A stretch of 64,000 bases of DNA, taken from Allolobophora icterica. Taxonomy: Eukaryota; Annelida; Clitellata; Crassiclitellata; Lumbricidae. The stretch is taken from assembly GCA_963556255.1 (NCBI GenBank), contig OY744614.1, positions 38,529,054-38,593,053 of the forward strand. The letters are read 5' to 3'. A model generated the notes under the pieces. The model searched no databases and was not told where the DNA came from. It saw only the letters and a list, made by a program, of their open reading frames with translations. Made by a program: the position numbers and the translations under genes. Positions 4,711-40,792 of this stretch are shown piece by piece (position 1 is the first letter of the stretch; each line of letters starts with the position of its first letter).

Positions 4711-5878
4711 TCAGATCTGGTAGCCGAGATGCTTGAGAACTCTGAAGCAGTGTTGAGTCATTTCTCGTCTTTCTTCGTCGCTGACTTTCGACCTCCATTT
4801 CGATATGTGTTCTTTACTGTTAAGCCTTCGTATACCGAAGATTCCGTCATAGGTCCCGGCGTTCAGCGTCTCGTTAACCCAACGATCGAATCCTTCCGGA
4901 ACCTCACTCGAAAATTGGCTGTACATCCGCGTCGCTGTTCCATGCGGATTCAAAAGGAAGTCCTCGTATCGGAGGGTTAAGGTAGACCCCGGATATCGTC
5001 TTTCCAAACGCCTCTTCGCTTCCAGATCGTCCCACATGCGCCGACACAGAAACTCAGACTCGTTCACCGCGGTCCAGTTACTGGTCCTGAGGTACGTCTG
5101 CAAGGTAAGAGGATCGGCCCTTGAAACTGCTATTGCCCTAGGGTCTCTGACGTAGAAGACGACGTGGACATCCGGCATCCGTTGGATTAGGGGTTCTAGG
5201 TCAGACATAGATGCCCGATGGATTCCCGCCACCACAAGCTTGGCCTGTGAACATCTGAAGCTGAGAACATCTCGACACGATATCGTGTGCTCGTCGAGAA
5301 AACGCATGTACCAGGCGGCATTGAAAAACTCGAAGAATTTGTCCTGGATGGTTCTACAGCGATTCTCAGACTCGAAATGCGGAGGGCTCGACGTCATCGT
5401 CATAGTCTGAAAGTCATATTCGTCCTCACCCGTTACTTCATCCAAGAATTCCACTTCACTGGCGTTCACTTGTAGTTTCCAGAAGTCTCCACACAATCCC
5501 ATAACGGATCTTCGAAGTTCGCTATCTTCCAACTGGTCAATGTAGCTCTGAAAAATGTCCACCTGTCTTTCGCCTCTAAGCATTTGCGCTGATTCCATCA
5601 TCCGAAGGAACCGGAAGACATCTCGGCATCGGACGATTTTCAGGTCTGACGATTCGGCGTCGAATTCGATTGCCTCACAGGCGGAAGTCGGAAGCAGTTG
5701 TCTTAGGCGAAACATCGAAACGTCTAGGCCCTTCATGCAGTCCCAGAACCCCTTCAAGGCCTTCGACACCGAGATGAACCGATGGCTCAAGGTTTCAAGA
5801 GGCAGGCGCCCCGAGTTGCAGTTTAATAGATCCTCCAGGTAGATCGTCATTGCAAGGCGTTTTTCTTTGTCGACTGTT
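4711..5878 (-). CDS. Sulfotransferase terminal catalytic exon, third tandem copy (4c)
   Basis: An intact third copy of the terminal exon, open from the acceptor cgttgcag above 5878 to the stop at 4711. It carries the same landmarks as 4a: GIHRASM, VFYVRDPRAIAVSR, NWTAVNESE, and C-terminal LGYQI. The entry phase is the same as 4a, so splicing from gene A exon 3 directly to 4c would keep frame and give about 535 residues. No separate copies of exons 1-3 lie between 4c and 4a, so 4c either serves as an alternative last exon of gene A or is a silent duplicate. The open frame reads a few codons past the acceptor into the intron; that extension is not conserved in the other genes and I do not count it as coding. 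Confidence 0.7.
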
Positions 5879-6381
5879 CTGCAACGATAAGATGCTTTAT
5901 GCATGGGTGACGGTGTAAAGACTTCAAGCTACCCCTTTTTTCAAGTTACCCCCGGTAATCTGAAATCGATTTCATATTACCCCATTCTCCCCCAGATAGT
6001 CTGAACACGATTTCAAGTAACCCCAGCGCTGTTCACATCACCCATATCTGATTATCTTACTATTCAAATCGGAACTGCGCCAACATCATGACATTTCTCA
6101 TACATAAATTCACGAGTGAAAGAATCATAGTTAACATAGTATTTTTCACACCGTAAAACACTCACCAGAGCCTGATTATTTAGCCCTACCTACATCACGA
6201 AGTCTGTAGTGATGTAGATATAACTTGATAAACATATCTTAGAATTAGTTACCGGATCTAGTATAAGCTATTAGCTTTCATCACCATTCTGTTTCTGTGT
6301 TCTCAGAAGCTTTGATTGTAAATTGTTACTTTTGGGACAATAATAAAACGTCCGTGATTTTAAACAGATTTTTCGAATGTC

Positions 6382-7532
6382 TCAGATCTGGTAGCCGAGA
6401 TGCTTGAGAACTCTGAAGCAGTGTTGAGTCATTTCTCGTCTTTCTTCATCACTGACTTTCGACGTCCATTTCGATATGTGTTCCTTGCTGTTTAGCCTTC
6501 GTATACCAAAGATTCCGTCATAGGTTCCTGCGTTCAGCGTCTCGTTAACCCACCGATCGAATCCTTCTGGAACCTTCCTCGATAATTGGCTGTACATCCG
6601 CGTCACGGTTCCACGAGGATCCAGAAGAAAGTCCTCGAATCGTCGGGTTAAGATAGACCCCGGATATCGTCTTTCCAAACGCTTCTTCGCTTCCAGATCG
6701 TCCCACATGCGCCGACACAGAAACTCAGACTCGTTCACCGCGGTCCAGTTACTGGAATTGAGGTACGTCTGCATGGTAAGAGGATCTGCCCTTGAAACTG
6801 CTATTGCCCTAGGGTCTCTAGGATGTGGACACTCGGCATCCGTTGGATTAGGGGTTCTAGGTCAGACATAGATGCCCGATGGATTCCTGCCACCACAAGC
6901 TTGGCCTTGGAACAACTAATGTTGACAACTTCTCGACACGACATCGTGTGCTCGTCGAGAAAACGCATGTACCAGGCGGCATTGAAAAACTCAGAGAATT
7001 TGTCCTGGATGGTTCTACAGCGATTCTCAGACTCGAAAGGCGTAGGGCTCGTCATCGTCGTCTGAAAGTCGTATTCTTCATCACCCGTTACTTCATACAA
7101 GAACTCCACTTCACTGGCGTCCATTTGTAGTTTCCAGAAGTCTCCACATAATTCCATAACGGATCTGCGAAGTTCGCTATCTTCCAACTGGTCAATGTAG
7201 CTCTGAAAATGTCCACCTGTCTTTCGCCTCTAAGCATTTGCGCTGAAGGCATCATCCGAAGGAACCGGAAGACATCTCGGCAGCGGACGATTTTCAGGTC
7301 TGACGATTCGGCGTCGAATTCGACTACCTCACAGGAGGAAGTCGGAACCAGTTGTCTTAGGCGAAACATGGAAACGTCTAGGCCTTTCATGCAGTCCCAG
7401 AAGTCCTTCAAGGCCTTCGACACCGAGATGAACCGATGGCTCAAGGTTTCAAGAGGCAGGCGCCCCGAGTTGCAGTTTAATAGATCCTCCAGGTAGTTCG
7501 TCATTGCAAGGCGTTTTTCTTTGTCGACTGTT
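6382..7532 (-). pseudogene. Broken copy of sulfotransferase terminal exon (4b)
   Basis: Middle of three tandem copies of the gene A terminal exon. The splice acceptor (cgttgcag) and the start and end of the coding sequence match 4a and 4c, but a single A is missing in an A-run near 7206, and about 10 nt are missing near 6820, exactly where the working copies encode the VFY-RDP phosphate-binding loop. Both changes shift the frame, so the open stretches 7558-7088, 7187-6801 and 6774-6382 lie in different frames. The copy therefore cannot encode a working catalytic domain as written. Its nucleotide identity to 4a and 4c is high, so the damage is recent or the copy has been homogenised by conversion. 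Confidence 0.85.
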
Positions 7533-8041
7533 CTGCAACGATAAGATGCTTTATGCATGGGTGACGGTGTAAAGACTTCAAGCTACCCCTTTTTTCAAGT
7601 TATCCCCCGGTAATCTGAAATCGATTTCATATTACCCCATTCTCCCCCGGGTAGTCTGAACACGATTTCAAGTAACCCCTGCGCTGTTCACATTAGCCAT
7701 ATCCGATTATCTTACTATTCAAATCGGAACTGCGCCTCTTATCATGAAATTTCTCATACATAAATTCACGTATGAAAGAATCATAGTTAACAAAGTATTT
7801 TTCACACCGCAAAACAGTCACCATGCAGAACCTGATTATTCAGCCCTACCCACATCACGAAGTCTGTAGTGATGTAGATATAACTTGATAAACATATCTT
7901 AGAAATATTTACCGGATCAAGCAAAAGCTATTAGCTTTCATCACAAGTCTCTTTCTCTGTTCTCAGAAGCTTTGATTGTAAATTGTTACTTTTGGGACAA
8001 TAATTAAACGTGTGTGATTTTAAACAGATTTTTCGAATATC

Positions 8042-9206
8042 TCAGATCTGGTAGCCGAGATGCTTGAGAACTCTGAAGCAGTGTTGAGTCATTTCTCGTC
8101 TTTCTTCGTCGCTGACTTTCGACCTCCATTTCGATATGTGTTCTTTACTGTTAAGCCTTCGTATACCGAAGATTCCGTCAGAGGTTCCTGCGTTCAGCGT
8201 CTCGTTAAGCAACCGATCGAATCCTTCCGGAACCTTCCTCGAAAATTGGCTGTACATCCGCGTCACGGTTCCACGAGGATCCAGAACAAAGTCCTCGTAT
8301 CGTAGGGTTAAGATAGACCCCGGATATCGTCTCTCAAGACGCCCCTTCGCTTCCAGATCGTCCCACATACGGCGACACAGAAACTCAGACTCGTTCACCG
8401 CGGTCCAGTTACTGGAATTGAGGTACGTCTGCATGGTAAGAGGATCGGCTCTTGAAACTGCTATTGCCCTAGGGTCTCTGATATAGAAGACGACGTGGAC
8501 ATCCGGCATCCGTTGGATTAGGGGTTCCAGGTCAGACATAGATGCCCGATGTATTCCCGCCACCACAAGCTTGGCCTGTGAACATCTGAAGCTGAGAACT
8601 TCTCGACACGGCATCCTGTGCTCGTTGAGAAAACGCATGTACCAGGCGGCATTGTAAAACTCAGAGAATTTGTCCTGGATGGTTCTACAGCGATTCTCAG
8701 ACTCGAAATGTGGAGGGGTCGTCGTCATCGTCGTATGAAAGTCGTATTCTTCATCACCCGTTACTTCATCAAAGAACTCCACTTCACTGGCGTCCACTTG
8801 TAGTTTCCAGAAGTCTCCACACAATCCCATAACGGATCTTCGAAGTTCGCTATCTTCCAACTGATCAAGATAACTCATAAATATGTCCATCCCACTGTCT
8901 TCTCTATGAAGTTGCGCTGAACGCAGACTCCGAAGGAACCGGAAGACATCTTGGCATCGGACGACTTTCAGGTCTGACGATTCGGCGTCGAATTCGATTG
9001 CCTCACAGGCGGAAGTCGGAAGCAGTTGTCTTAGGCGAAACATAGAAACGCCCAGTTTCTTCGTGCACTCCCAGAACCCCTTCAAGGCCCTCGAAACCGA
9101 TATGTACCGGTGACTCTTGGTTTCAAGAGGCAGACGTCCGGAGTTGCAGTTTAGTAGATCCTCCAGGTAGTTCGTCATTGCAAGGCGTTTTTCTTTGTCG
9201 ACTGCT
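8042..9206 (-). CDS. Sulfotransferase gene A, terminal catalytic exon 4a
   Basis: Last coding exon of gene A, a predicted carbohydrate 6-O-sulfotransferase that would move sulfate from PAPS to a sugar hydroxyl in the Golgi. The acceptor is cgttgcag just above 9206; the first base completes an Arg codon begun in exon 3, and the frame runs open to the stop at 8042. Seen: a Trp/Tyr-rich stretch FNAAWYMRFL-like, then VVAGIHRASM, then the 3'-phosphate-binding motif VFYIRDPRAIAVSR, then NWTAVNESE with N-glycosylation sequons, and a C-terminus ending LGYQI. With exons 1-3 the product is about 534 residues, slightly longer than typical CHST1-7 enzymes. Family assignment rests on the RDPRA motif and the LGY-type end; acceptor sugar is unknown. 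Nearest in the window are exon 4 of genes B and C and two further copies downstream (4b, 4c). Confidence 0.85.
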
Positions 9207-10878: not shown

Positions 10879-11099
10879 CTGCGTGTCTGATTGCTGTGGT
10901 AGAGCAAGCGAAGGGGGTTTGAATAGAACGGCATTCCTGAGTAGTGGGCGTGGAATGCATCGAGTGCCTCGTACCAGAGGATCGTTGTTTGGTGTTCGAT
11001 GTTGAAGACGTGTGAGAAGAGAGTGGAACCACCTCTCATGTACGAGAACAGAACGACTTTCGACACACCGTGGTAGTTTGAAACATTATTCAGCAAGTC
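10879..11099 (-). CDS. Sulfotransferase gene A exon 3 (5'-PAPS-binding loop)
   Basis: 221-nt exon, entry phase 0, exit phase 2. It encodes the 5'-phosphosulfate-binding segment VVLFSYMRGGSTLFSHVF, in the position where CHST1-7 enzymes have an R-[ST]-G-S-[ST] loop; here it is RGGST. The acceptor (cgacag, followed by GACTTGCTG) and donor (GCAG, followed by GTATGC) are conserved in genes B and C, and nearly all substitutions between the three copies are silent or conservative. Without this exon the terminal exon would lack PAPS binding, so the long open frame of exon 4 alone is not the whole gene. Confidence 0.85.
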
Positions 11100-11493: not shown

Positions 11494-11609
11494 CTGTCGA
11501 ACTTTTATCCAGTTGTCATCTGGTCCGTCTAAGACATCATTGTCTAGTCTTGATTGGCTTTGTTCTTCCTTTATTAGTCGGTCATTCTTTATTTCCAGTA
11601 GCCCCGCAC
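11494..11609 (-). CDS. Sulfotransferase gene A exon 2 (stem region)
   Basis: 116-nt exon, entry phase 1, exit phase 0, encoding an acidic, Gln/Ser-rich linker (GLLEIKNDRLIKEEQSQSR...) between the membrane anchor and catalytic domain. The acceptor is cttactag followed by GTGCGGGG, the donor CGACAG followed by GTAACT. The reading frame is kept in genes B and C although residues differ, which supports coding status. The upstream intron end carries units of a 27-bp repeat. This is the most divergent exon, as expected for a stem. Confidence 0.75.
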
Positions 11610-13849: not shown

Positions 13850-13952
13850 TTAAAACATAGAGAAGACAAAGAACGCCCAGCGCCAGAGTTATCAGCGCTC
13901 GAAGTCTTCGTGTCCTGAAACCCAGCATTCTGCACAACTCCAAAGCGAGCAT
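13850..13952 (-). CDS. Sulfotransferase gene A exon 1 (signal anchor)
   Basis: First coding exon, exit phase 1. Two in-frame ATGs eight codons apart are present (13952 and 13928). The second gives M-L-G-F-R-T-R-R-L-R followed by a run of about 18 hydrophobic residues (ALITLALGVLCLLYVL): a short basic cytosolic tail plus one transmembrane segment, the layout of a type II Golgi enzyme. The donor is TTTTAA followed by GTAAGT. The same exon, length and phase recur in genes B and C. Transcription would start in the 2.3-kb interval shared head-to-head with gene B. Confidence 0.75.
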
Positions 13953-16270: not shown

Positions 16271-16373
16271 ATGGTCGTTTTTGAGTTGTGCGGAATGCTG
16301 GCTTTCAGGACACGAAGATTTCGAGCGGTAACAACTCTGGCGTTGTGCGTCCTTGCTCTTCTCTATGTTATCG
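16271..16373 (+). CDS. Sulfotransferase gene B exon 1 (signal anchor)
   Basis: First coding exon of gene B, exit phase 1, donor TTATCG followed by GTAAGT. ATGs at 16271 and 16295 are in frame; the upstream one adds MVVFELCG. From the second: M-L-A-F-R-T-R-R-F-R, then hydrophobic AVTTLALCVLALLYVI, a basic tail and signal anchor. The donor sequence is the first unit of a tandem array of the 14-mer GGTAAGTTCACATA. Exon length (103 nt) and phase equal those of genes A and C. Confidence 0.75.
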
Positions 16374-16552
16374 GTAAGTTCACATAGGTAAGTTCACACA
16401 GGTGAGTTTGCATAGGTAAGTTCACATAGGGAAGTTCACATAGCTCTAAGTTCACATAGGTAAGTTCACATAGGTGAGTTTATAAGTTCACATAGGGAAG
16501 TTCACATAGCTAAGTTCACATAGGTAAGTTCACATAGGTAAGTTTACATACA
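16374..16552 (+). repeat. Tandem 14-mer of 5' splice sites, gene B intron 1 (block 1)
   Basis: About twelve units of GGTAAGTTCACATA with variants (GGTGAGTTTGCATA, GGGAAGTTCACATA), starting at the exon 1 donor itself. Continues as a second block at 17007-17096 after a LINE fragment. Confidence 0.88.
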
Positions 16553-16555
16553 CTT

Positions 16556-17006
16556 CTCAACCCGCTTCTCTTCTGCCCTAACACTTCTCAGCCCTTCCGT
16601 CACCTCATCACTAAAAGTTGCGAATCGTTCCATAGCCATAGCTGTCCCACCTCTTTGGAACAAACTCCCACCAGTATTACGAGAAATATCAGACCCATGC
16701 TACGAACTCACCAAAACCTCACCTCTTGCTATCTCTCCCCAGGTCTTCCATTCAAAACTGAAAACATTGCTCTTTCACAAGTCTTATCCTGATTCATCCT
16801 CTTCTCCTTACCTCACCCGCCGTTTCGACCCCAAGCACCACCCTCCTTAGCCGTCTGACTGTCTGCCTGACTGACCCTTTGGATCTTGACCTGGAACTGA
16901 TTTCACCCACCCACCCACCCCGCCTAACGATTCTGATTTGATTGAGCGCTTGTGATTAAGCTGGTTCCCGCGACTTCGCTTTTGTAGAAATTTCGAGATT
17001 ACGATT
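16556..17006 (+). mobile_element. LINE 3' fragment inside the intron-1 donor repeat array
   Basis: Reads VPPLWNKLPPVLREIS, FHSKLKTLLFHKSYPDSS, typical of the C-terminal end of CR1/L2-like LINE proteins, followed by a 3' untranslated part ending in GATTACGATTACGAT. It splits the 14-bp GGTAAGTTCACATA array of gene B into two blocks. A related minus-strand copy is at about 26920-27207. Confidence 0.65.
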
Positions 17007-17096
17007 ACGATAGGTGAGTTTACATACGTAAGTTCACATAGGTAAGTTCACATAGGTAAGTTCACATAGGTAAGTTCACATAGGTAAGTTCACATA
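17007..17096 (+). repeat. Tandem 14-mer of 5' splice sites, gene B intron 1 (block 2)
   Basis: Six further units, continuing block 1 beyond the inserted LINE fragment. Confidence 0.85.
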
Positions 17097-17304
17097 ATCG
17101 TAATCATAATCTCCAAACTTCTAAAGCACCACTCGAAGGCCAAGCGCAGGGCACCAGCCTATTCACGAGCGCTGCGTCAAATCAGAGGGGTTTTCCAAAG
17201 AATAGTCCAGAGGAATTTCAAATCCGGTTTCAATGAGGGCAGGTCGAGAGAGGATTGCAAAGCAGCTGCTATGGAGGGTGTCGTTTAGGGCGAGAAGAAT
17301 TGGA

Positions 17305-17336
<32 letters not shown>

Positions 17337-18017
17337 CACATACTTGGGTACAAAACTAATGCCCTTGAAAATGTTGGCTGAGATATATGACCTAATTACC
17401 TTGTGCAATTAACATACTTCTCGCTGTCTTAAGACTTTTCTTTTCTCACGGGGCTCCGCACTGGGAGCGCCTCTGATTAGGTTGTACTGCGAGAGGCGCT
17501 TTATAACTGCATAGATACAATACAATACATAGTGTAATCGTAATAGTGAACTGGGCAATGAAAGAGACAATGACGCAACACGCTGAGAACTTAATACACA
17601 AAATAGGGTCCAGCAGGCAGCCGCTACATGCGTTGGCCATGTACACAGTGGAGCACCTGTTGGGTTTACACCGGCGGGCGATTAGGCACAGCCTATCTGT
17701 AAGCACCCCCACTCAGATAATGCTACAGCTATAGCAGTATAATATGTCTTCTGCAGTATAACTTCATTTTCTGATTAAATAAATGTTTTAGGACATATTA
17801 TGCTGGTCGTTTGTATGTTCGTATGTATTCGCTTATCCGCCTCAGTCTGTCTGTCTGTCTGTCTCAGCGGACTTACCTTCTGGATGTTGACCAGGGTTGA
17901 AGATTGTGCGTCATCGAATGATACCTGTTGCATTAGAAACCGACGCTATAGAAGTGACTGATTGATAATGTATGTATGTACATATATGTGTGTGTATGTC
18001 TGTATGTATTTATGTGT

Positions 18018-19424
18018 GTCACTATATCCTATTTGCTGACGATACAAATGTCTTTCTCTCTAACTCCTCATATGATGAGCTATTTAGAGTCGCAAATAGG
18101 GAATTAAGGTCTGCAAGTGACTGGTTCAGGGCTAACAAGCTCTCTCTCAATCTGACTAAATCAAATTTTATCTTATTCCGATCACAGAACAAGCAAATTC
18201 CAATCTCTTCGACTGACATAGTCATAGATAATAAATCCATCCCCCAGGTTAATTCAACTAAATTTCTTGGTGTTTACATTGATCAACACTTAAAGTGGAG
18301 AGTCCATATTGATGAAATTAATAAAAAAAACTAACCAAGAACATCGGAATACTTAAACGAATTTCATATATAATACCTCCCCACATACTGATTAATCTTT
18401 ATTTCACTCTCATCTATCCTTATCTTACCTATTGCAACCTTATATGGACTTCGACCTATTCTACGAACTTAAACAACCTAAGAATTTCCCAAAAAAAGGC
18501 AATACGAGTGGTCACTAAATCTCCATATAATTCGCATACTCAACCCCTGTTTACCCAATACAAACTACTAAACATTATGCAACTTAGGTTCATGCAAACT
18601 TGTGAACTTATGTACAAATACCACAATAACCTTCTCCCCCCCTTCATTTGCATCCTACTTTATTCGAACTTCACATACAATCAATATGAGAAATAAACCT
18701 GATTATAGAAGTATCTATGCTAGAACAGACATTCGTAAAATGTCTATTAAGTACCAAGGCCCTTACCTCTGGAATAGCCTCCCACCCTGTGTCCGAACTT
18801 CCTTGTATTATAAACAATTTAAATATCTACTGCGTGCACACACAGTAGAGCACATAGTTTAATAGTTTAATTGTTTAGTTAAGAAGTAGTTAAGATTCAT
18901 ATTATGTTTTGCTACTTTATAAAGCAGGCACATGTTGTATACCTAACTCATGTCTAAACCAAACCCCTCAGTGTACTATGTCCTTCTTTACTACACCGTG
19001 AGGCTTACACCTATGTACTTACCTCAGCTATTATTTACCCTCCTCATTTTACTTTGTCCTCCTTACTTCACTCGAACACTCCTACCCATGTACCTATTCC
19101 TGCCTGCATCTATCTACCCCCTTACTGACTCTGGCTATTACTTCTACTCATACATTCTCTGTCATCTTTTTCTACTTTACTTTGAAACACAGGCCCCTCT
19201 TAGCGGGATTAGTCCCTTCTGGGTGCCTATTTGATCTCACCTACAATTTACTATGCAAATGATACGTAAATATGCTTGTCTTAAATAGTTTAGCCGATGA
19301 GAATTTTAATATTTTGTTACCACTTCTCTATGTTAATTTTCTTCTCTCAGTATTACTTGTTTGCTTGTTTTACTGGGATCAATAAAAAAAAAGTTTTTTG
19401 ACTATCAAAAAAAAAAAAAAAAAG
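18018..19424 (+). mobile_element. 5'-truncated poly-A LINE relic (reverse transcriptase, frameshifted)
   Basis: Reverse transcriptase C-terminal half: YILFADDTNVF, ANRELRSASDWF, SLNLTKSNFILF, STKFLGVYIDQHLKWRVHID; then a frameshift near 18330 and continuation IYPYLTYCNLIWTS, KRAIRVVTKSP-like, and YQGPYLWNSLPPCVRTS. The 3' part ends in a poly-A run at about 19407-19423. GTGTG occurs on both sides, a candidate target duplication. The element splits a TG/TA microsatellite in gene B intron 1 that is uninterrupted in gene C. It is a different family from the 19.9-kb element. Confidence 0.8.
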
Positions 19425-19870
19425 TGTGAATGTATTCATGTGTGTATGTATGCATGTATGTGTGTATGCATGTAGGCCTATGTATGTATTCTGCATGTAT
19501 GTATGTGTGTATGCATGTATGTATGCTATAGGAATGACTATGTATGTACATTGTATAATTATGTGTATTTCATATGTATGTATGACACTGTATGTGTGTA
19601 ACTGTGTATGCATGTATGTATGTTATAGGTATGACTATGTATGTATGTATATATGTATTTAATACTATTTATGTATGTATGTATGTATGTATATATGTAT
19701 TTAATACTATTTATGTATGTATGTATGTATGTATGTATGTATGTATGTATGTATGTATGTATGTATGTATGTATGTATGTATGTATGTATGTATGTATGT
19801 ATGTATGTATGTATGCATATATGTTATAGGCATGACTATGTATGTATATACTATATATGTATGTATGTAT
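19425..19870. repeat. TATG/TGTA microsatellite, gene B intron 1
   Basis: Imperfect then near-perfect TATG units with two copies of a TTTAATACTATTTATG interruption. Both LINE copies in this intron were inserted into this tract. Confidence 0.92.
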
Positions 19871-21092
19871 ATGGCGCTATATGATGTCTCCTCAGCCTTT
19901 GACATGGTTGACCACACCATTCTTCTACAGCGCCTTGAGACCTCATGCGGTCTGAAGGGCCCCCCTCTCCAGTGGTTCCGGTCATACCTGTCTGATCGCA
20001 CTCAGATGGTTATCTCTGGTGAATCTAGAACTCTGTGGGTCCCTATCAAACTGGGTGTTCCGCAGGGCTCTGTTCTAGGCCCTCTCCTCTTTATTTTGTA
20101 CACGGCCGGTATCCCATCTCTGCTCCCCATCCATGGGGCTTCAGGCCATCTCTTTGCTGACGATGTCCAGGCTTATGTCCATGGGCCTCCTTCCTCTCAG
20201 CTTCTTCTTGCTCAGCGCATCGAAGCTCTTTCTCATGATCTTCATACCTGGATGTCTTGCAATCGCCTCTCCGTTAATTCGTCCAAAACCCAATATATCT
20301 GGTTTGGCACTCCTCAGCAACTTCTAAAACTCGACTTTGCTGTGCTGTCTCAAAGGTTTCCGCTTTTAACTTTCTCGTCTAGCGTTCGTGATCTAGGAGT
20401 GACCCTTGACAATTCTCTGACCTTTACTGAATACATTTCCAAACTCACTCGCACTTCCTATTTTCACCTAAGGCGCCTCAGAGCTATCCGTCGCTCTCTC
20501 TCATCTCCAATTTTCACTTCAATTGTCCATGCATTTGTCTGCTCTAGACTTGACTATTGCAATTCCCTCCTCATTGGTCTTCCTAAAGTCCGTCTTGCTC
20601 CTCTTCAGTCCGTTCTCAATGCTGCTGCTAGATTAATTGCCCGTCTTCCTCGATTCTCTCATATCACCACCTTTATGACAGAAGAACTCCACTGGCTCCC
20701 GCTGTCTGCCCGCATCCAATTTAAGGTCCTCATCCTTGTGTGTAAGGCTCAACTTGGTTTCGCTCCAAAATATTTATGTGACTTAATACATCGCCCTCAC
20801 TCTGCTGCTTCTCTTCGTCCTCTTCGTTCATCTGACCGTTTGGACCTCCTCGTTCCCCGTGTCAGGACTTCTCTGGCTCAATCTAGGTCTTTTGCCTCCA
20901 TTGGCCCTGCTCTTTGGAATGAGCTTCCTCCGTACGTTCGTTCTTCTATTCTCTCAGGTAACGTCGCTTCCTCTTTTAAGTTTCTTAAAACTTGCTTTTT
21001 CTCTCGGGGTCTCTCGCACTGGGAGCGCTTCTGAATGACCCTCCCGCTAGAAGCGCTTTATAAATATCCAAATACAATACAATACAATATGC
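19871..21092 (+). mobile_element. 5'-truncated CR1/L2-type LINE with reverse transcriptase
   Basis: A single open frame carries most of the C-terminal half of a non-LTR reverse transcriptase: DVSSAFDMVDHTILLQRLE (palm motif A region), GVPQGSVLGPLLFILYTA, HLFADDVQAYVHG (the FADD catalytic motif), VRDLGVTLDNSLTF, SRLDYCNSLLIGLP, and the end GPALWNELPP... with LSHWERF. The N-terminal endonuclease is missing. The 3' end is followed by the LINE-typical GGGAGCGCTTCTGAATG/AGAAGCGCTTTATAAAT stem and an (ATACA)n tail. It was inserted into a TATG microsatellite in gene B intron 1, and the upstream ORF codons there are microsatellite, not protein. Open frame over about 385 codons suggests recent insertion. 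Confidence 0.88.
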
Positions 21093-21409
21093 ATTATGCA
21101 TGTAGGCCATGCAGAGTGCACTTGTGAATGTGTGTATGTAGTGAGACACTTAATATGGCGTCTTTTATGTACGTTTCACAGAAGCACTGCACAAATTACA
21201 ATCAAGCTACCGTAATCTAAACAAGGTGCGTTTTACTCTTCTTTGAACAGAATCAACTGTCTGCCCATGTTGTTCCCGCAACTTCACATAAGTCGTAATA
21301 CCTATAACCATATGCGCGCGTCACTTCTTTGCCACAAGAGTAATCAGTAACCGGCACCGCTGATATTTGTCAGCCTACCTACCTACACGTTTAGTATCTG
21401 TTACAGTTG

Positions 21410-21770
21410 GCACAGTGTCTAGTGTATGTTGTAATTGGCACATGTTTAGTGTGTGTTGTAATTGGCACATGTCTTGAGTCTGTTGTAATTGGCACATGTC
21501 TTGTGTATGTTGTAATTGGCACATGTTTAGTGTGTGTTGTAATTGGCACGTGTCTAGAGTCTGTTGTAATTGGCACGTGTCTAGTGTGTGTTGTAATTGG
21601 CACATGTTTAGTGTCTGTTGTAATTGGCACATGTCTTGAGTCTGTTATAATTGGCACATGTCTTGAGTCTGTTGTAATTGACACATGTCTAGTGTCTGTT
21701 GTAATTGGCACTTGTCTAGTGTATGTGGTAATTGACACATGCTTAATGTCTTGCGTTATTGGCACTTACT
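21410..21770 (+). repeat. 27-bp minisatellite abutting the gene B exon 2 acceptor
   Basis: About thirteen units spaced 27 bp apart, each containing TTGTAATTGGCACATG and then a CTAG or CTTG core. The last unit reads into the exon 2 acceptor (TTGGCACTTACTAG). Because 27 is a multiple of three it reads as spurious nine-residue protein repeats on both strands; it is intronic. Confidence 0.88.
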
Positions 21771-21772
21771 AG

Positions 21773-21888
21773 GTGCGGGGCTACTGGAAATAAAAAATGG
21801 CCGACTGATAAACGAAGAACAAAGCCAATCAAGACGAGACAATGATGTCTTAGACGAATCAGATGACACCTGGATAACAGTCCCACAG
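21773..21888 (+). CDS. Sulfotransferase gene B exon 2 (stem region)
   Basis: 116-nt exon, entry phase 1, exit phase 0. Acceptor cttactag followed by GTGCGGGG; donor CCACAG followed by GTAACC. It encodes AGLLEIKNGRLINEEQ and continues into an acidic stretch ending WITVPQ. The translation is the same as in gene C exon 2. It lies 5.4 kb from exon 1 because two LINE copies and long TATG runs sit in intron 1. The 27-bp minisatellite directly upstream ends in the acceptor itself. Confidence 0.75.
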
Positions 21889-22112
21889 GTAACCTTGAGA
21901 AGGAAGTGGCACTCTGAAACCTCGTCTTTAAACAATCTCATTCTATTCATATTTGAAATTTAGAGCCAGAAAGAGCTGAAGAACACTGTTGGATGCATAA
22001 TGGCGAATCGATGTTCCAATACATAGATTCGCCCGATTTACAGCGAAGGGTTTAATCGAGAAAATACACACAGTATCTAGTTGTTTTCTGTCTTATAATT
22101 ACTGCACACAAT

Positions 22113-22465
22113 CAGTGTGGGAATTGTAGAAAAAAGACTAGAGGGGATTGAACATTTTATCCGTATTTTGCAGACTAATGTCAACGAATTTTGAAAGCAG
22201 ATGATTTCAACGCTAGCAGTTTGCAAGTCAGACTTGAATCAAAATCAAATCCTTTGTTGAGAAATTTCAAAAATGCATACATGATAGGCCTACACCATGG
22301 AAATGTCTTCTCTTTGTCGGAGACTCAGAGTCAAATAATGCTATATCGCACTAGCACAACTGAGGGGGTTGGAAACGACCCCTTTGGGTGTACAATGAAG
22401 ACAACTGCGGGGTCCTAAGAAAGATTGAGGGTTGAACCCCTAACATCCCGACAATTCCCATCCTG
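22113..22465. mobile_element. MITE family C, copy 3 (gene B intron 2)
   Basis: Opposite orientation to copy 1; ends CAGTGTGGGAATTGT and ACAATTCCCATCCTG. Flanks CACACAAT / CACACAGT. The same insertion is present at the matching place in gene C (38264-38635). Confidence 0.8.
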
Positions 22466-23052
22466 CACACAGTAGTTCAATCACAGTCTTGCATTATTAA
22501 TATGCTACTAACTCACTTACGTACGCGGCAGCTACGTTGAAATTAAAACCGATGTAGGGCCTACGTACAAATCTATAAATTCAAACAATATAGACGTTTG
22601 TCTATCTTACCCACTGAATGCTAGGCACACTGATCTCAAACACACTGTTATTGCACACTATTCTCTAAAACACACTGCCTGTTATATAAATTATATAGCC
22701 TCAAACCGCAGAGTCACCTCAAAAAGTCCGGAAACGAATCATTGACTACTTTATCCCTAGTTCTTAGCACTAGGGCGCCCGCCGATCATAGTCAAACGAT
22801 GCATGCGTGCTAGCTAGGCACTCTCGGCCCCGTCCAAAACTTGTTGATTCATCACTTTTCCATCGCGTCAATGCAAGATCGAGCTTTCATTAACTTATCT
22901 GAAACCGCATCCATTTAGATCTGATGTTTTAGCGTTAAAATTTCAAAAGACATAAACACACACATATATGGAATTAAAGTATTAATAAGATTGTTAATTG
23001 AATTATTTAACACTGAATTTTACATCTAAAATAAATAGTATTATATCAACAG

Positions 23053-23273
23053 GACTTGCTGAATACTGATTCAAACTACCACGATGTGTCGAAGGTCGTT
23101 CTGTTCTCGTACATGCGAGGTGGTTCCACTCTCTTCTCACACGTCTTCAACATCGAACACCAAACAACTATTCTCTGGTACGAGGCACTCGATGCATTCC
23201 ACGCCCACTACTCAGGAATGCCGTTCTATTCAAACCCCCTTCGCTTGCTCTACCACAGCAATCAGACGCTCAG
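23053..23273 (+). CDS. Sulfotransferase gene B exon 3 (5'-PAPS-binding loop)
   Basis: 221-nt exon between acceptor tcaacag and donor CTCAG followed by GTAAGC. It encodes DLLNTDSNYHDVSKVV and then FSYMRGGSTLFSHVF, with RGGST at about residues 95-99 of the joined protein, followed by WYEALDAFHAHYSGMPFY. It corresponds to the PAPS 5'-phosphosulfate loop of carbohydrate sulfotransferases. Exit phase 2 joins exon 4 in frame through an Arg codon. Confidence 0.85.
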
Positions 23274-23374
23274 GTAAGCATGAATATAAGTTTATATATA
23301 CACAGGAAACTCCGTTCTCTAAAAGTACAAATGAAACTGCAACAAACTAGAAGATACACAATGAAGATACGGCC

Positions 23375-23645
23375 TACAATACATAATGATGATACATAAT
23401 GAAGATACATATTGAAGATACATAATGAAGATACATAATGAAGATAGAACCTATATAATGACGATTCATAATGAAGATACATAATGAAGATATGGAACGA
23501 AGATACATGTGCATAATGAAGATAGAACCCGCATAATGACGATACATACTGAAGATTAAATGAAGATACACAATGAAGATGCACAATGAATATACACAAT
23601 GAAGATACATAATGAATGAAGATACATAATGCAGATATATAATGA
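23375..23645. repeat. AATGAAGATACAT-type array, gene B intron 3
   Basis: About twenty units of GAAGATACATAAT, the longest of three matching arrays. Confidence 0.8.
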
Positions 23646-24177
23646 AGTGGGGAAACGCAAATGATATAAAACTAATGACGATCACTCATATTCTCTTCCG
23701 GTATCAAGGAGTGAAATGCTTTGGAAAGAGTAATGGGACTCTCAGATGGAGAATGTTTCCTCCCCGGTACACATCAACACACGAAATGTGGTCAAAGGTT
23801 CGGCACGGTTTTCAGAATGACAACCAGCGCATGAAACGCCCGATGTTTAGTCAGACCCCTATATGAGAAAATAAAAGCAAAGTTGTAGGCCTACTACGCC
23901 GACAAATTTGACGACCTTTTCAACGGGAATTGTTTCCCAAGTTTATTTTTTGACAGAGTTAATGCCGGCCCAGATTTTCATGCATTCATTAACGCCAACT
24001 TTATTATTCCACGACATAGATCTGCAAAAAATTGTTTTCCTGCAAGCCCCGACGTTTTCAACCAAAATAAAAACTCAAGCACATCAAAATTTAAATCATT
24101 AAAGTCACAGTTGGGGTTAAGATGCGGTTGCCCTGAAATCTTTGTGGGGCATCCCCCATCTGATCCACCGCTTGCCG

Positions 24178-24804
24178 GTATAGCAACTTTAGATTACCCC
24201 ACTTCACATTACACACCGACGACTTGAAATCGCGTTCAGATTACGATTTCTGATTACCCCTCAAATTAATGGGGCCCATTTTTGACTATCTCATACAATA
24301 CAAGCCAATATTTATAATTAAACTCTCATTAATCCCCCAGTACATGATGCACGATAAGTTATCTTACACTGTAGATCACACTACATCAACTATGAAACGT
24401 GCAAATCTTGCACATTAACTAAATGTTATGGCAACAACCTGTATTACTTTTTAACCTACCAATTAACCATAAATACTTATAATAATTCATTTGAATTAAC
24501 AACCTGTTGTGCTCTCGTGGAGTGGGGCAGCTAACACGTATAGTTTATTTTCAGATATTGGTAGGCCTAACTACTAACTTTCAATCTTGTATGTTTCACG
24601 TGTTTTATTCAATAAACGTATCATGAGTTGTAAGCATAAGAATTTATCATTTTAGCTAAATCAGACAGAGGGCAATGTGAATAGCGCAGGGGTAACTTGA
24701 AATCGCGTTCAGGCTACCCCAGGGGGTATAATATGAAATCGATTTCAGATTACCGGGAATACGTTGAAAGGGGGAGTAGGTCCGAGTAGCTTGAGGTTTA
24801 TGCA
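24178..24804. repeat. Gene B intron 3 copy of the TGAAATCG-motif element
   Basis: Starts GGTATAGCAACTTTAGATTA and ends near GTAGCTTGAGGTTTATGCACC, imperfect inverted ends; same interior as gene A and C copies. Confidence 0.55.
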
Positions 24805-24838
24805 CCGTCATCCATGCGTATGGTTGTTATGGCTACAG

Positions 24839-26015
24839 ATCGGTCGACAAAGAAAAACGCCTTGCAATGACGAAGTACCTGGAGGATCTACTAAACTGCA
24901 ACTACGGACGCCTGCCTCTTGAAACGTTGAGTCATCGGTTCGTCTCAGTTTCGAAGGCCTTGAAGGACTTCTGGGACTGCATGAAGACCCGGGGCGTTAC
25001 GATGTTTAGCCTAAGACAACTGCTTCCGACATCCGCCTGTGAGGCAATCGAATTCGACGCCAACTCGTCATATCTGAACGTCGTCCGATGCCAAGATGTC
25101 TTCCGGTTCTTTCGGAGGATGTATTCAGCGCAAATACGTAGAGGCGAGAGACAGTTGCACATATTTCTGAATTACGTTGATCGGCTGGAAGATAGTGAAC
25201 TTCGAAGATTCGTTATGGAATTATGTGGAGACTTCTGGAAACTACAAATGGACGCCAACGACGTGAAGCTTTTGGATAAAGTAACGGGTGAGGAAGAATA
25301 CGACTTTCAGACGACGATGACGACGACGATGACGACGACCCCTCCGCATTTCGAGTCTGAGAATCGCTGTAGAACCATCCAGAACAAGTTCTTCGAGTTT
25401 TTCAATGCTGCCTGGTACATGCGTTTTCTCGACGAGCACAAGATGCCGTGTCGAGATGTTCTCAGGTACAGATGTTCCAAGGCCAAGCTTGTGGTGGCAG
25501 GAATCCATCGGGCATCTATGTCTGACCTAGAACCCCTAATCCAACGAATGCCGGATGTCCACATCGTCTTCTACGTCAGAGACCCTAGGGCAATAGCAGT
25601 TTCAAGGGCCGATCCTCTTACCATGCAGACGTTCCTCAATTCTGGTAACTGGACCGCGGTGAACGAGTCTGAGTTTCTGTGTCGCCGTATGTGGGACGAT
25701 CTGGAAGCGAAGGAGAGTTTGGAAAGACGATACCCGGGGTCTATCTCAACCTTACGATACGAGGACTTCCTTCTGGATCCTCGTGGAACCGTGACGAAGA
25801 TGTACAACCAATTTTTGATGCAGGTTCCAGAAGGATTCGATCGTTGGGTTAACGAGACGCTGAACGCAGGAACCTATGACGGAATCTTCGGTATACGAAG
25901 GGTAAACAGTAAGGAACACATATCGAAATGGAGGTCGAAAGTCAACGACGAAGAAAGACAACAAATGACTCAAAATTGCTTTATGGTTCTCAAGCAGCTC
26001 GGTTACCAGATCTGA
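24839..26015 (+). CDS. Sulfotransferase gene B terminal catalytic exon 4
   Basis: Last exon of gene B: acceptor ggctacag before 24839, open to TGA at 26013-26015. Joined to exons 1-3 the coding length is 1617 nt, 538 residues from the first ATG. Landmarks: a Thr/Met run (TTMTTTMTTTPP, about residues 305-316), FNAAWYMRFLDEH, VVAGIHRASMSDLEP, VFYVRDPRAIAVSR (RDP at about 394-396), NWTAVNESEFLCRRMWDDLE, NETLNAG, and the end KQLGYQI. Predicted role: PAPS-dependent 6-O-sulfation of a glycan in the Golgi lumen. An AATAAA at 26683 is a candidate polyadenylation signal. Gene C is its inverted near-copy. Confidence 0.88.
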
Positions 26016-34029: not shown

Positions 34030-35200
34030 TCAGATCTGGTAACCGAGCTCCTTGAGAACCCCGAAGCAGTGTTGAGTCATTTGTCCTCTTTCTTCGTCGC
34101 TGACTTTCGACCTCCATTTCGATATGTGTTCCTTACTGTTGAGCCTTCGTATACCGAAGATTCCGTCATAGGTCCCTGCGTTCAGCGTCTCGTTAACCCA
34201 ACGATCGAATCCTTCTGGGACCTGCATCAAAAATCGGTTGTACATCTGCGTCACGGTTCGACGAGGATCCAGAAGAAAGTCCTCGTATCGTAGGGTCATG
34301 ATAGACAACATGTATCGTCTTCTCAAACGCTTCATCGCTTCCAGGTCGTCCGACATACGCCGACATAGCAACCGGGACTCGTTCACCGCTGTCCAGTTAC
34401 CAGAATTGAGGAACGTCTGCAAGGTAAGAGGATCGGCCCTTGAAACTGCTATAGCCCTAGGGTCTCTGACGTAGAAGACGATGTGGACATCCGGCATCCG
34501 TTGGATTAGGGGTTCTAGGTCAGACATAGATGCCCTATGGATTCCCGCCACCACAAGCTTGGCCTGTGAACATCTGTACCTGAGAACATCTCGACACGGC
34601 ATCTTGTGCTCGTCGAGAAAACGCATGTACCAGGCGGCGTTGAAAAACTCGAAGAATTTGTCCTGGATGGTTCTACAGTAATGCTCAGACTTGAAATGTG
34701 GAGGGGTGGTCGTCGTCATTGTCGTCTGAAAGTCGTATTCTTCATCACCCGTTACTTCATCCAAAAGCTTCACTCCGCTGGCCTCCATTTGTAGTTTCCA
34801 GAAGTCTCCACATAATTCCATAACGAATCTTCGAAGTTCGCTATCTTTTAACTGGTCAATGTAGCTCTGAAATATTATGTGCACCTGTCTTTCGCCTCTA
34901 CCCATTTGCGCTGAATACATCCTCCGAAAGAATCGGAAGACATCTCGGCATCGGACGACTTCCAGGTATGACGATTTGGCGTCGAATTCGATTGCCTCAC
35001 AGGCGGATGTCGGAAGCAGTTGTCTTAGGCTAAACATCGTAACGCCCCGGGTCTTCATGCAGTCCCAGAAGTCCTTCAAGGCCTTCGAAACTGAGACGAA
35101 CCTATGACTCAAAGTTTCAAGAGGCAGGCGTTCGGAGTTGCAGTTTAGTAGATCCTCCAGGTACTTCGTCATTGCAAGGCGTTTTTCATTGTCGTCCGAT
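34030..35200 (-). CDS. Sulfotransferase gene C terminal catalytic exon 4
   Basis: Last exon of gene C, acceptor ggctgcag above 35200, open to the stop at 34030. With exons 1-3 the coding length is 1611 nt (536 residues). The catalytic landmarks are intact: VVAGIHRASM, VFYVRDPRAIAVSR, and the end KELGYQI. Differences from gene B cluster after the phosphate-binding motif, where NESRLLCRRMSDDLEAMKRL replaces the gene B sequence, in a part of these enzymes thought to help choose the acceptor. The Thr/Met run is shorter (TTMTTTTPP). The intron above and the 3' flank align with gene B in inverted orientation. Confidence 0.88.
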
Positions 35201-35234
35201 CTGCAGCCATAACAACCATATGCATGGGTGACGG

Positions 35235-35855
35235 TGTATAAACTTCAAGCTACTCCCTATTCCAAGCTACTCCCGTAATCTGAAATCGATTTCATATAAC
35301 CCCCCGGGGTTTACCCTGAACGCGATTTCAAGTTACCCCTGCGCTGTTCACATTGCCCTCTATCTGATTTAGCTAATATGATAAAAATTCTTATGCTTAC
35401 AACTCATGATACGTTTATTGAATAAAACGCGTGAAACATACAAGATTAAAAGTTAGTAGGCCTACCAATATCTGAAAAAAAACTATACGTGTTAGCTGCC
35501 CACTCCATGATAGCACAACAGGTTGTCAATTCAAATGAATTATTATAAGCATTTATGGCTAATTGGTATGTTAAAAAGTAATACAGGTTGTTGCAATAAC
35601 ATTTAGTCGATGTGCAAGATGTGCATGTTTCATAGTTGATGTAGTGTGATCCACAGAGTAAGATAAAAACTTATCGTGCATCATGTATTGGAGGATTAAT
35701 GAGAGTTTAATTATAAATATTGGCAATTATTATATGAGATAGTCGAGAATGGGCACCATTAATTTGAGGGGGTAATCAGAAATCGTAATATGAACGCGAT
35801 TTCAAGTTGTCGGTGTGTAATGTGAAGTGGGGTAATCTAAAGTTGATATACCGGC
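35235..35855. repeat. Gene C intron 3 copy of the TGAAATCG-motif element
   Basis: Inverted counterpart of the gene B block, with the same motif clusters at each end. Confidence 0.55.
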
Positions 35856-36134
35856 ATGCCCCACAAAGATTTCAGGACAACCGCATCTTAACCCCAATTG
35901 TGACTTTAATGATTTAAATTTTGATGTGCTTGAGTTTTGATTTTGGTTGAAAACGTCGGGGGCTTGAAGGAAAACAATTTTTTTAAAGAATAATAAAGTT
36001 GGCGTTAATGAATGCATGAAAATCTGGGCTGGCATTAACTCTGTCGAAAAATAAACTTGGGAAACAATTCCCGTTGAACAGGTCGTCAAATTTGTCGGCG
36101 AAGTAGGCCTACAACCTTGCTTTATTTTCTCACT

Positions 36135-36527
36135 AGCTGGTTTTTTCCCGGCGTTGCCCGGGGAGTTCAGTGAAGTTAATGTGAAGTGAAATCCCTACGG
36201 CTGCGCCATCTGGCGAATCTTTAGAAATGCGTGCCGGTGACAGAGAGTTGGCGGTCAAAGACACAGAATCTTCTCGGGCGGCGCCATCTGGCGAGTGAAA
36301 ATAGGTTGAGTGTAAGTTTTTTACCAGCTAAAAGGCATTGGCCGGGTAGGTTTTGGCCCGGCACACCATGGTAGCGGTGAAAACGGGGGACGCGAAGCCT
36401 CACACTGGGTGTGTCATGCCCACCCCGACACAGTAGTGAAGGTTTTGAGTGAAAAGCTCCAAAACTGTAGAAATGCATCCCGGTCAAAGTCGGTGTGACA
36501 GACAGATTCTTCTCTTTATTTATGTAC
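36135..36527. mobile_element. Insertion in gene C intron 3, class unknown
   Basis: Present in gene C between TTTTCTCA and TATAGGG, absent from the matching gene B sequence near 23861. Contains TTCCCGGCGTTGCCCGGGG and two GCGCCATCTGGCGA repeats. No open frame or clear TSD. Confidence 0.55.
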
Positions 36528-36744
36528 ATATAGGGACCTGCCTGAACATCGGGCGTTTCATGCGCTGGTTGTCATTATGAAAACCGTGCCGAACCTTTGA
36601 CCGCATTTCGTGTGTTGATGTATACCGGGGAGGAAACATTCTCCTGCTGAGAGTCCCATTACTCTTTCCAAAGCATTTCACTCCTTGATACCGAAAGAGA
36701 ATATGAGCGATCGTCATTAGTTTTATATCATTTACGTTTCCCCA

Positions 36745-36990
36745 CTTCATTATGCATCTTCATTATGTATCTTCATTCATTATGTATCTTCATTGTCTAT
36801 ATTCAGTGTGTATCTTCATTGTGTATCTTCATTTACATCTTCATTATGTATCGTCATTATGCGGGTTCTATCTTCATTATGTACATGTTCTTCGTACAGT
36901 ATCTTCATCTTTTATCTTCATTATGAATCGTCATTATGTAGGTGACCTACAGTAGGTCCTATCTTCATTATGTATCTTCATTATGTATCT
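36745..36990. repeat. AATGAAGATACAT-type array, gene C intron 3
   Basis: Same 13-bp unit, inverted, downstream of gene C exon 3. Confidence 0.8.
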
Positions 36991-37063
36991 TTTAGTTTGT
37001 TGCAGTGTCATCTGTACTTTTGATAATTAAATTTCCTATACATAAACTTGTATTCATGCATAC

Positions 37064-37284
37064 CTGCGCCTCTGAGTGCTGTAGTAGAGCAAGCGAAGGG
37101 GGTTTGAATAGAACGGCATTCCTGAGTAGTGGGCGTGGAATGCATCGAGTGCCTCGTACCAGAGAATCGTCGTCTGGTATTCGATGTTGAAGACGTGTGA
37201 GAAGAGAGTGGAACCACCCCGCATGTACGAGAACAGAACGACTTTCGACGCACCGTAGTAGTTTGAGACATTACTCAGCAAGTC
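37064..37284 (-). CDS. Sulfotransferase gene C exon 3 (5'-PAPS-binding loop)
   Basis: 221-nt exon with acceptor cgacag and donor GCGCAG followed by GTATGC; entry phase 0, exit phase 2. Encodes LSNVSNYYGASKVVLFSYM followed by RGGSTLFSHVFNIEYQTTI. The RGGST loop and the following WYEALDAFHAHYSG are identical to genes A and B. Its end (LLYYSTQRR) differs from LLYHSNQT in the others. Confidence 0.85.
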
Positions 37285-37585
37285 CTGTCGATATAATACT
37301 ATTTATATTAAACATAAAACTCAATATTACTAAATGATTCAATGAACAATCTTATTAATACTTTAATTCCATAATTATGTGTGTGTGTGTGTTTATGTAT
37401 TTGGTTATTTTAGCGCTGAAACATCAGATCTAAATGGATGCGATTTCAGATAAGTTAATGAAAGCTCGATCTTGCATTGACGCGATGGAAAAGTAATGAA
37501 TCAACGATCGAGTTTTGGACGGGGCCGAGCGTGCCTAGCTAGCACGCATGCATCGTTTGACTATGATCGGCGGGAGCCCTAGTGC

Positions 37586-37954
37586 CAGGGGCGGCGCTAC
37601 ACCAGGGCGCGCCAGGGCAAATGCCCTGGTAAAAATGCCTTTGCCCTGGTCGATGCCCTGCCAGAATTTTTGCCCTGTCCAGAATTTTTTCGGGCATATT
37701 TGTTATATCCTGAGATAAAATTCACTTAATTAACTGAAATGCTAAAATTTGCTTTACAAATGTCAAAAAACGTTCAACTTCCGGAGGGCTTTGCCCATTT
37801 GACCTGCTAACTATAGACATATAATAGTGCGGGGGCGATTTATGGAAAAGCGCGGTAGCGCGATCTTATATGGTCACCATTTAAGCTCGTCTTATGCACT
37901 GGTTAGTTGTATGACTGCCCTGCAGGTTACAAAAACTGTCTGGCGCCGCCACTG
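37586..37954. mobile_element. MITE family I (369 bp), gene C intron 2
   Basis: Ends CAGGGGCGGCGCTA and CTGGCGCCGCCACTG; exact 8-bp TSD CCTAGTGC (37578-37585, 37955-37962). Gene B has the unoccupied site at 22767-22774. Confidence 0.92.
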
Positions 37955-38263
37955 CCTAGTGCTAAGAACTAGGGATAAAGTAATCATTGATTCGTTTCCG
38001 GACTTTTTGAGGTGACTCGGCGGTTTGAGGCTATATAATTTATATAACAGACAGTGTGTTTTAGAGAATAGTGTGCTTTAACAGTGTGTTTGAGAGCAGT
38101 GTGCCTAGCGTTCAGTGGGTAAGATAGCCAAACATCTGCATTGTTTGAATTTATAGATTTGTACGTAGGCCCCAGATAAGTTTTAATTTCAACGTTGCTG
38201 CCGCGTACGTAAGTGAGTAAGTAGCATATTAATAATGCAAGACTGTGATTGAACTACTGTGTG

Positions 38264-38635
38264 CAGGGTGGGAATTGTCGGGAGTTTAGGGGTTCAACCC
38301 CCAATCTTTCTTAGGACCCCGCAGTTGTCTTCACAGGACCCCGCAGTTGTCTTGTACACCCAAAGGGGTCGTTTCCAACCCCCTCAGTTGTCCTAGTGCG
38401 ATATAGCATTATTTGACTCTGAGTCTCCGACAAAGAGAAGACATTTCCATGGTGTATCATGTATGCATTTTTGAAATTTCTCAACAAAGGATTTGATTTT
38501 GATTCGAATCTGACTTGCAAAACTGCTAGCGTTGAAATCATCTGCTTTCAAATTTCGTTGACATTAGGCCTGGTCTGCAAAATACGGATAAAATTTTCAA
38601 CCCCCTCTAGTCTTTTTTTTACAATTCCCACACTG
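38264..38635. mobile_element. MITE family C, copy 5 (gene C intron 2)
   Basis: Ends CAGGGTGGGAATTGT and ACAATTCCCACACTG. Counterpart of the gene B insertion, so it was in place before the inverted duplication. A short internal duplication (CCCCGCAGTTGTCTT) distinguishes it. Confidence 0.8.
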
Positions 38636-38863
38636 ATTGTATGAAATAATTATAAGACAGAAAACAACTAGAAACTGTGTGTCTTTTCTCGATTAAACCC
38701 TTCGCTGTAAAGCTGGCGAATCTATGTATTTGAATATCGATTCGCAATAATTATACATCCAACAGTGTTCTTCAGCTCTTTCTGGCTCTGAATTTCAAAT
38801 ATGAATAGAATGAGATTGTTTAAAGACGAGGTTTCAGTGTTACACTTCCTTTCTCAAGGTTAC

Positions 38864-38979
38864 CTGTGGGACTGTTATCCAGGTGTCATCTGATTCGTCT
38901 AAGACATCATTGTCTCGTCTTGATTGGCTTTGTTCTTCGTTTATCAGTCGGCCATTTTTTATTTCCAGTAACCCCGCAC
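38864..38979 (-). CDS. Sulfotransferase gene C exon 2 (stem region)
   Basis: 116-nt exon, entry phase 1, exit phase 0; acceptor cttactag followed by GTGCGGGG, donor CCACAG followed by GTAACC. Its translation equals gene B exon 2. It is followed upstream (39.0-39.6 kb) by the 27-bp minisatellite, here split by a MITE. Confidence 0.75.
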
Positions 38980-38981
38980 CT

Positions 38982-39640
38982 AGTAAGTGCCAATAACGCA
39001 AGACACTACACATGTGTCAATTACATCATACACTAGACAAGTGCCAATTACAACATACACTAAACATGTGCCAATTACAACAGACTCAAGACATGTGCCA
39101 ATTACAACAGACACTAAACATGTGCCAATTACGACATACGCTAGACATGTGCCAATTACAACAGATTATAGACATGTGCCAATTATAGCAGACACAACGT
39201 GTGCCAATTACAACAGTCACTAGACATGTGCCAATTACAGTACACACGACATGTGCCATTTACAACAGACACGACATGTGCGAATTACAACAGACACTAG
39301 ACATATGTTCCAATTACAACAGACACTAAAGACATGTGCCAATTACAACATACACTAGGCATGTGCCAATTACCAGTGTTTTAGTTGTCGGGGGGTTTGG
39401 GGGGTTCAACTCCCCTAGTTATCTTTCTAACCGCCTCAGCTAAGTTACTGAAAATTTGTTGGGGGGTTACTTTACTACAAAAAAATTGGTGTTTGGTCTA
39501 TGTGATTATGTGATTTGGTAATCTGCAAATTTTTGACCCCCCCCCCAGTTGTTTTTGGACAACTAAAACACTGCCAATTACAACATACACTAGACACTGT
39601 ACCAACTGTAACAGACACTAGACGTGTAGTTAGGTAAGCT
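38982..39640 (-). repeat. 27-bp minisatellite abutting the gene C exon 2 acceptor
   Basis: Same repeat as in gene B, inverted, with about sixteen units of 24-27 bp, split at 39374-39573 by a MITE. Confidence 0.88.
39374..39573. mobile_element. MITE family H (200 bp) inside minisatellite
   Basis: Perfect 16-bp inverted ends CAGTGTTTTAGTTGTC / GACAACTAAAACACTG and exact 8-bp TSD CCAATTAC (39366-39373, 39574-39581). The target is one unit of the 27-bp array next to gene C exon 2. Confidence 0.92.
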
Positions 39641-39840
39641 GACAAATAGTAGTGCCGGTTACTGATTACTCTTGTGGCAAAAGAAGTGACTCGCGCAGCG
39701 GCGCAGGTGGTATAAGTATTACGATTTATGTGAAGCTCATACGGGAACAAAATACGCAGGCAGCTGATTCTGTTCAGCATACGTGTTCAAAGAATCGTAA
39801 TTAAGCGTATACTTGTTAAGATTAGCTTCATTGTAATTTG

Positions 39841-40615: not shown

Positions 40616-40792
40616 CATGGACGGCGATCTAGGGGGTCGAGGGGGACAAGACCCCACCTTTAAGAGTGGGGTGCAGATCCCCCCACACACACATTTTGAA
40701 GAAACACCAAAAAAGATCAACTTTTTTTCCACCTCTCTTAGTTCAAAAGTGTCCCGTGTCCCCCCACCTGTCAAACAAGATCGCCGCCATTG
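40616..40792. mobile_element. MITE family E (177 bp), gene C intron 1
   Basis: Ends CATGGACGGCGATCT and AAGATCGCCGCCATTG, flanks ACCCTATT / ATCCTATT. The uninterrupted site is in gene B intron 1 near 17605-17612. Confidence 0.8.

Follow-up and report, generated by a model that had tools for sequence, protein, structure and literature searches.

The window analysed here is a 64,000-nucleotide stretch of Allolobophora icterica DNA (contig OY744614.1). It contains three related genes, A, B and C (Table 1), of which A and B lie head to head and B and C tail to tail. Genes B and C are complete, share the build of gene A and have one exon 4 each; in gene A, exons 1–3 are single and the terminal exon 4 is present in three tandem copies, 4a, 4b and 4c. 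When the four exons were compared with the window by tblastn, no further copies were found outside the three genes, the only matches being weak and short (E of at least 0.5). Within the window, the tripling of exon 4 is confined to gene A.

Table 1. Positions of the exons and spacers of gene A and of genes B and C within the window
Feature	Position	Strand	Remarks
Gene A exon 1	13850..13928	-	start codon; matches exon 1 of B and C; anchor-like hydrophobic stretch by eye
Gene A exon 2	11494..11609	-	matches exon 2 of B and C
Gene A exon 3	10879..11099	-	contains SYMRGGSTLF
Terminal exon 4a	8042..9206	-	proximal, open frame
Spacer 4a to 4b	7533..8041	-	509 bp, without AATAAA/ATTAAA
Terminal exon 4b	6382..7532	-	frame broken; compared with 4c, lacks 1, 6 and 10 bp in three places
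Spacer 4b to 4c	5879..6381	-	503 bp, without AATAAA/ATTAAA; 31/503 mismatches to spacer 4a to 4b
Terminal exon 4c	4711..5878	-	distal, open frame
Gene B	16295..26015	+	exons 16295-16373, 21773-21888, 23053-23273; lone exon 4 24839-26015
Gene C	34030..41471	-	exons 41471-41393, 38979-38864, 37284-37064; lone exon 4 35200-34030

The remainder of the window contains introns, microsatellites and reverse-transcriptase fragments. Reverse-transcriptase-like open stretches lie at 19586-21034 (1124 relatives with E of 1e-60 or lower), 17969-18696 and 3567-3959; the last matches the first at 72.5% and sits beyond 4c, where the B-like flank ends. Other genes may have exons in two further open stretches, 50066-50569 and 55281-55652 (minus strand), of which the second is coiled-coil-like; neither has a Pfam match over the cut-off. 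Searches with Rfam (gathering score) and ARAGORN found nothing within the window.

A sulfotransferase-like gene with three terminal exons

The first-pass annotation had described three tandem terminal exons in gene A at a spacing of about 1.66 kb, and the array was recovered as described, the start of 4b lying 1674 bp from that of 4a and the start of 4c a further 1654 bp on. The coordinates, phase and acceptor proposed for the copies are also correct. Exon 3 ends in ..ACGCAG before the donor GTATGC at 10879, leaving two codon bases, and each copy begins right after ..ATCGTTGCAG with the base that completes the codon. The frames of 4a and 4c are open, as had been claimed, running to a common stop (387 and 388 codons), and each exon can be joined in frame to exon 3, giving products of 526 and 527 residues. 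More than one copy can therefore give a full protein, 4b being the broken one: it lacks 17 bases relative to 4c, and the 1- and 10-bp deletions destroy the frame. The missing single base falls within a homopolymer of A and might reflect a sequencing error, an explanation that would hardly do for the 10-bp deletion. Gene A thus presents tandem homologous terminal exons, alike in acceptor and phase, behind common upstream exons.

The likeness among the copies is far above chance: 4a and 4c have 98 mismatches in 1165 positions, plus a single 3-bp gap, and 4b and 4c have 76 in 1151. The encoded stretches of 4a and 4c have RDPRAIAVSR in common and differ at 53 aligned positions, one gap included. 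As read from the genome, products ending in 4a or 4c would have exons 1–3 in common and differ at these 53 positions of exon 4.

Profile matches identify the predicted product of gene A as a sulfotransferase-like enzyme encoded by four exons. The three terminal exons scanned, 4a, 4c and that of gene B, pass the Pfam cut-offs of PF13469 (27 bits) and PF00685 (22 bits) with scores of 37.7/33.1, 32.5/22.3 and 33.3/29.3, respectively, 4c being only just over the second. The matches lie over the later part (second half) of both profiles, those of 4a covering positions 110-211 of PF13469 and 89-250 of PF00685, which fits the earlier placing of the 3'-phosphate side in exon 4. The SYMRGGSTLF motif of exon 3 resembles the 5'-PAPS loop and may be that loop; exon 3 alone had no Pfam sulfotransferase match. 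The hydrophobic stretch of exon 1, judged by eye, is a putative membrane anchor. Some 300 residues separate SYMRGGSTLF from RDPRAIAVSR, which is long for the sulfotransferase family. Sulfotransfer_2, presumably the Pfam profile of the pipe / heparan sulfate 2-O-sulfotransferase family, was not among the families matched by the joined product A-4a when E values as high as 10 were admitted, a search in which the HMMER filters drop most weak matches. Sequence comparison with the PDB brought up three matches, all weak, of which retinol dehydratase was the best (E 0.028), and NCBIfam gave nothing for 4a or 4c. An AlphaFold model of exon 4a, built from 8 sequences, was too poor for use (mean pLDDT 54.1).

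Four protein relatives (P0001–P0004) are 74, 48, 47 and 41% identical to 4a. P0002–P0004 start within a few residues of the exon 3/4 border, which supports its placement. P0001 has 59 extra residues before the border, which look like intron read through. A Strigamia maritima protein is a far relative of exon 4 (25% identity over 47%), and no relative was found in viral contigs.

Origin of the array and the repeats before exon 4

Sequence likenesses around the copies indicate that exon 4 was copied in tandem twice, along with about 180 bp of the preceding intron and some of the 3' flank. The extent of this unit follows from the region upstream of 4a, which is alike to that of 4b over 186 aligned columns (80% identical), from intron sequence common to 4a, B and C that reaches to about 9822, and from the 3' flank of 4a, the first 258 bp of which match the flank of B. 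The two spacers align with three gaps in addition to the mismatches in Table 1.

Changes common to two of the gene A copies, polarised by sites where B and C agree, number 46, of which 26 are in the exon. Sharing between 4b and 4c accounts for 10 of the 12 exon sites before position 330 and for 3 of the 14 after it (Fisher p = 0.005); the split was picked after seeing the data, and a best-split permutation that allows for this choice gives p = 0.013 (20,000 shuffles). This mosaic suggests conversion or unequal exchange among the exon 4 copies. Exon divergence is also uneven among the three genes, suggesting conversion between them: between B and C, exon 2 has 1 difference in 116 bases and exon 3 has 17 in 221, and between A and B, exon 3 has 9 in 221 and exon 1 has 13 in 79. 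The terminal exon of gene C alone alters four otherwise invariant residues (K287M, E291R, P295M and G296L in 4a numbering), and gene C may be relaxed or altered.

The palindrome TGAAATCGnnTTCA occurs without mismatch, on at least one strand, at 13 places in the window (5961, 6002, 7616, 7657, 9298, 9334, 9806, 24225, 24698, 24734, 35281, 35317 and 35791), all of them just upstream of an exon 4 copy. Each of the five copies is preceded by a pair at a distance of 81-128 bp, and 4a and the lone terminal exons of B and C by one more at about 590-600 bp. With up to 2 mismatches there are 38 matches against 7.79 expected. No such motif was seen by eye in the one frame available, that of the 59 residues preceding exon 4 in P0001. 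The repeats invite a reading in which choice among catalytic terminal exons arose independently of pipe, on one pre-mRNA without intervening poly(A) signals, with the TGAAATCGnnTTCA repeats as docking sites and the distal block as selector; we regard it as unlikely. For the gene A distal block paired with the proximal block of 4a, 4b or 4c, the predicted duplex energies (-76.6, -78.3 and -72.3) lie close to the summed energies of the separate hairpins (-71.3, -70.7 and -70.7), though joint folds reach -87.2, -86.9 and -86.1 (no shuffled control), and such pairing was not accepted as evidence of docking. Energies in B and C resemble those in gene A. The same repeats precede the lone exon 4 of B and that of C. 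Their likelier origin is an inserted repeat element, of which they are probably the ends, although they may have a part in splicing.

Signs of constraint on the downstream copies

A codon model was fitted to the five copies (385 codons, one fixed tree); p values are against an omega of 1 and uncorrected for the number of tests. The dN/dS comparison by which the first-pass annotation would have judged 4c came out divided. Taken together, the 4b and 4c tips reject neutrality (omega 0.48, LRT against 1 = 8.18, p = 0.0042), as they do with their stem (omega 0.44, p = 0.0004), which lends some support to past use; 4c alone falls short (omega 0.47, p = 0.061), and the broken 4b is about the same (omega 0.48, p = 0.042). 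Since 4b resembles 4c in this respect, omega bears on the past. The corresponding values are 0.52 for the B and C tips (p = 0.0054) and 0.50 for all A copies (p = 0.0002), and 4a shows no departure from 1 (omega 0.64, p = 0.20). Over codons 1-110, neutrality is rejected in none of three branch sets (4c, p = 0.38; 4b+4c, 0.67; 4a, 0.51). Over codons 111-385, it is rejected in all three (p = 0.048, 0.0048 and, for 4a with an omega of 0.32, 0.011).

These values suggest that the downstream copies evolved under some constraint after duplication, and 4b would have been constrained for much of its life and have broken recently, to judge from its omega. No upstream exons other than those of gene A came to light for 4b and 4c, which leaves splicing to exon 3 as the simplest route by which constraint could act. 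The case is weaker with the spacers as neutral clock, because their divergence (31 of 503) is close to the 4b-4c dN of 0.053 (dS 0.123). Gene conversion among the copies also upsets the single tree of the codon model and can imitate constraint; conversion from a used copy could be the source of what appears in 4b and 4c.

Free drift was simulated with 4000 runs per setting at indel/substitution ratios of 0.1 and 0.2. The 4c branch is about 37 substitutions long by the fitted model (0.096 per codon) and about 60 by the neutral clock (0.16 per codon). At ratio 0.1, 4c stays open in fractions of 0.031, 0.014, 0.0045 and 0.001 of runs at 30, 37, 50 and 60 substitutions, respectively; at ratio 0.2, the fractions are 0.0015, 0.0005, 0 and 0. 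The figures at 0.1 are the fairer guide, since noncoding comparisons give gaps to mismatches of 3:31 between the spacers and 7:75 in the B and C introns. In this model, drift would seldom leave an open 4c.

Residue counts suggest that 4c is kept no worse than 4a. Among 4a, 4c, B, C and P0001, the changes confined to one sequence, at positions where the others agree, number 11 in 4a, 7 in 4c, 6 in B and 14 in C. In an alignment of ten sequences, at positions where all other rows agree, 4a and 4c have one change each (W332L and I298T), C four and B none. Relative-rate counts of 4a to 4c are 17:16 with P0001 as outgroup, 22:16 with B and 27:14 with C (chi2 4.12).

Alternative exons or a partial duplication

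Neither spacer contains AATAAA or ATTAAA, an absence that is not significant in itself in sequences so short. A scan of both for eleven poly(A) hexamers found only CATAAA, once in each, about 22 bp before the next exon. ATTAAA occurs inside 4b (7481) and inside 4c (5827), and the next AATAAA or ATTAAA beyond 4c is at 2970, with weaker hexamers at 4611, 4439 and 4096; in B and C, AATAAA lies 667 and 520 bp past the stop. The missing signals between the copies lean towards one long transcript with competing acceptors, and one long pre-mRNA is for this reason the probable substrate.

The best explanation as a whole, to which we give an even chance, is that 4a and 4c are alternative terminal exons, each joined to the common exons 1–3 of a sulfotransferase-like gene, probably from one long pre-mRNA on which their acceptors would compete. 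Nearly as much weight, though somewhat less than an even chance, goes to a partial tandem duplication without function, in which unequal exchange made the array, only 4a is spliced, and conversion has kept the remnant copies 4b and 4c alike, 4c being unbroken so far. The broken 4b, the mosaic of common changes, the near equality of spacer divergence and dN, and a proximal acceptor equally good in pyrimidine count (10/20 vs 11/20) would all be at home in such a history. It fits poorly with the joint rejection of neutrality by 4b and 4c, with the rarity of an open 4c under drift, and with conserved residues kept in 4c at least as well as in 4a.

The loss by 4a alone of an otherwise invariant tryptophan, its omega over the whole exon and its excess of own changes with C as outgroup could instead mean that the distal 4c is now the main exon and 4a is relaxed. 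We consider this very unlikely, because 4c also loses one invariant residue, the counts with P0001 and B are even, and 4a rejects neutrality over codons 111-385. Slighter still is the chance that alleles or repeats were wrongly assembled in tandem: the copies carry distinct indels besides the mismatches given above, a divergence that exceeds what is usual between alleles, and exons 1–3 of gene A are single. Returning to alternative terminal exons, we see about even odds for 4c being a real one now or in the recent past. The exon choice proposed in the first-pass annotation is possible and in part supported; such a choice might change substrate specificity.

Genes in which common 5' exons are spliced to a single member of a set of homologous 3' exons include insect GST genes and serpin-1, which belong to other protein families than gene A. 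Among sulfotransferases, Drosophila pipe has tandem mutually exclusive terminal exons, and its isoforms are said to have distinct functional specificities. The kind is thus already known among sulfotransferase genes, and a passage of PMC9013439 that treats pipe under UTRs gives it eight clusters of such mutually exclusive exons. Gene A is like pipe in being a sulfotransferase gene with tandem homologous terminal exons. It differs in matching PF13469/PF00685, whereas pipe belongs to the heparan sulfate 2-O-sulfotransferase type, and in having three copies, one broken, known from genomic sequence alone. The same basis sets it apart from the human tandem duplicated exon substitutions counted in a passage of PMC9741552, where 77 of 236 events swap C-terminal regions and the swaps are annotated alternative transcripts. 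Our literature search, over titles and the starts of abstracts with few subscription journals, found no second sulfotransferase gene with duplicated or alternative terminal exons besides pipe.

If 4c is unused, gene A is an ordinary partial duplication. If 4c is spliced, gene A would look like an independent case, since its sulfotransferase family differs from that of pipe, and would add, from a further sulfotransferase family, a second instance in which most of the catalytic portion is exchanged behind a common 5' end. It would also be a system caught young, with one copy freshly broken and the adjoining sister genes B and C, each with a single exon 4, showing the state without copies.
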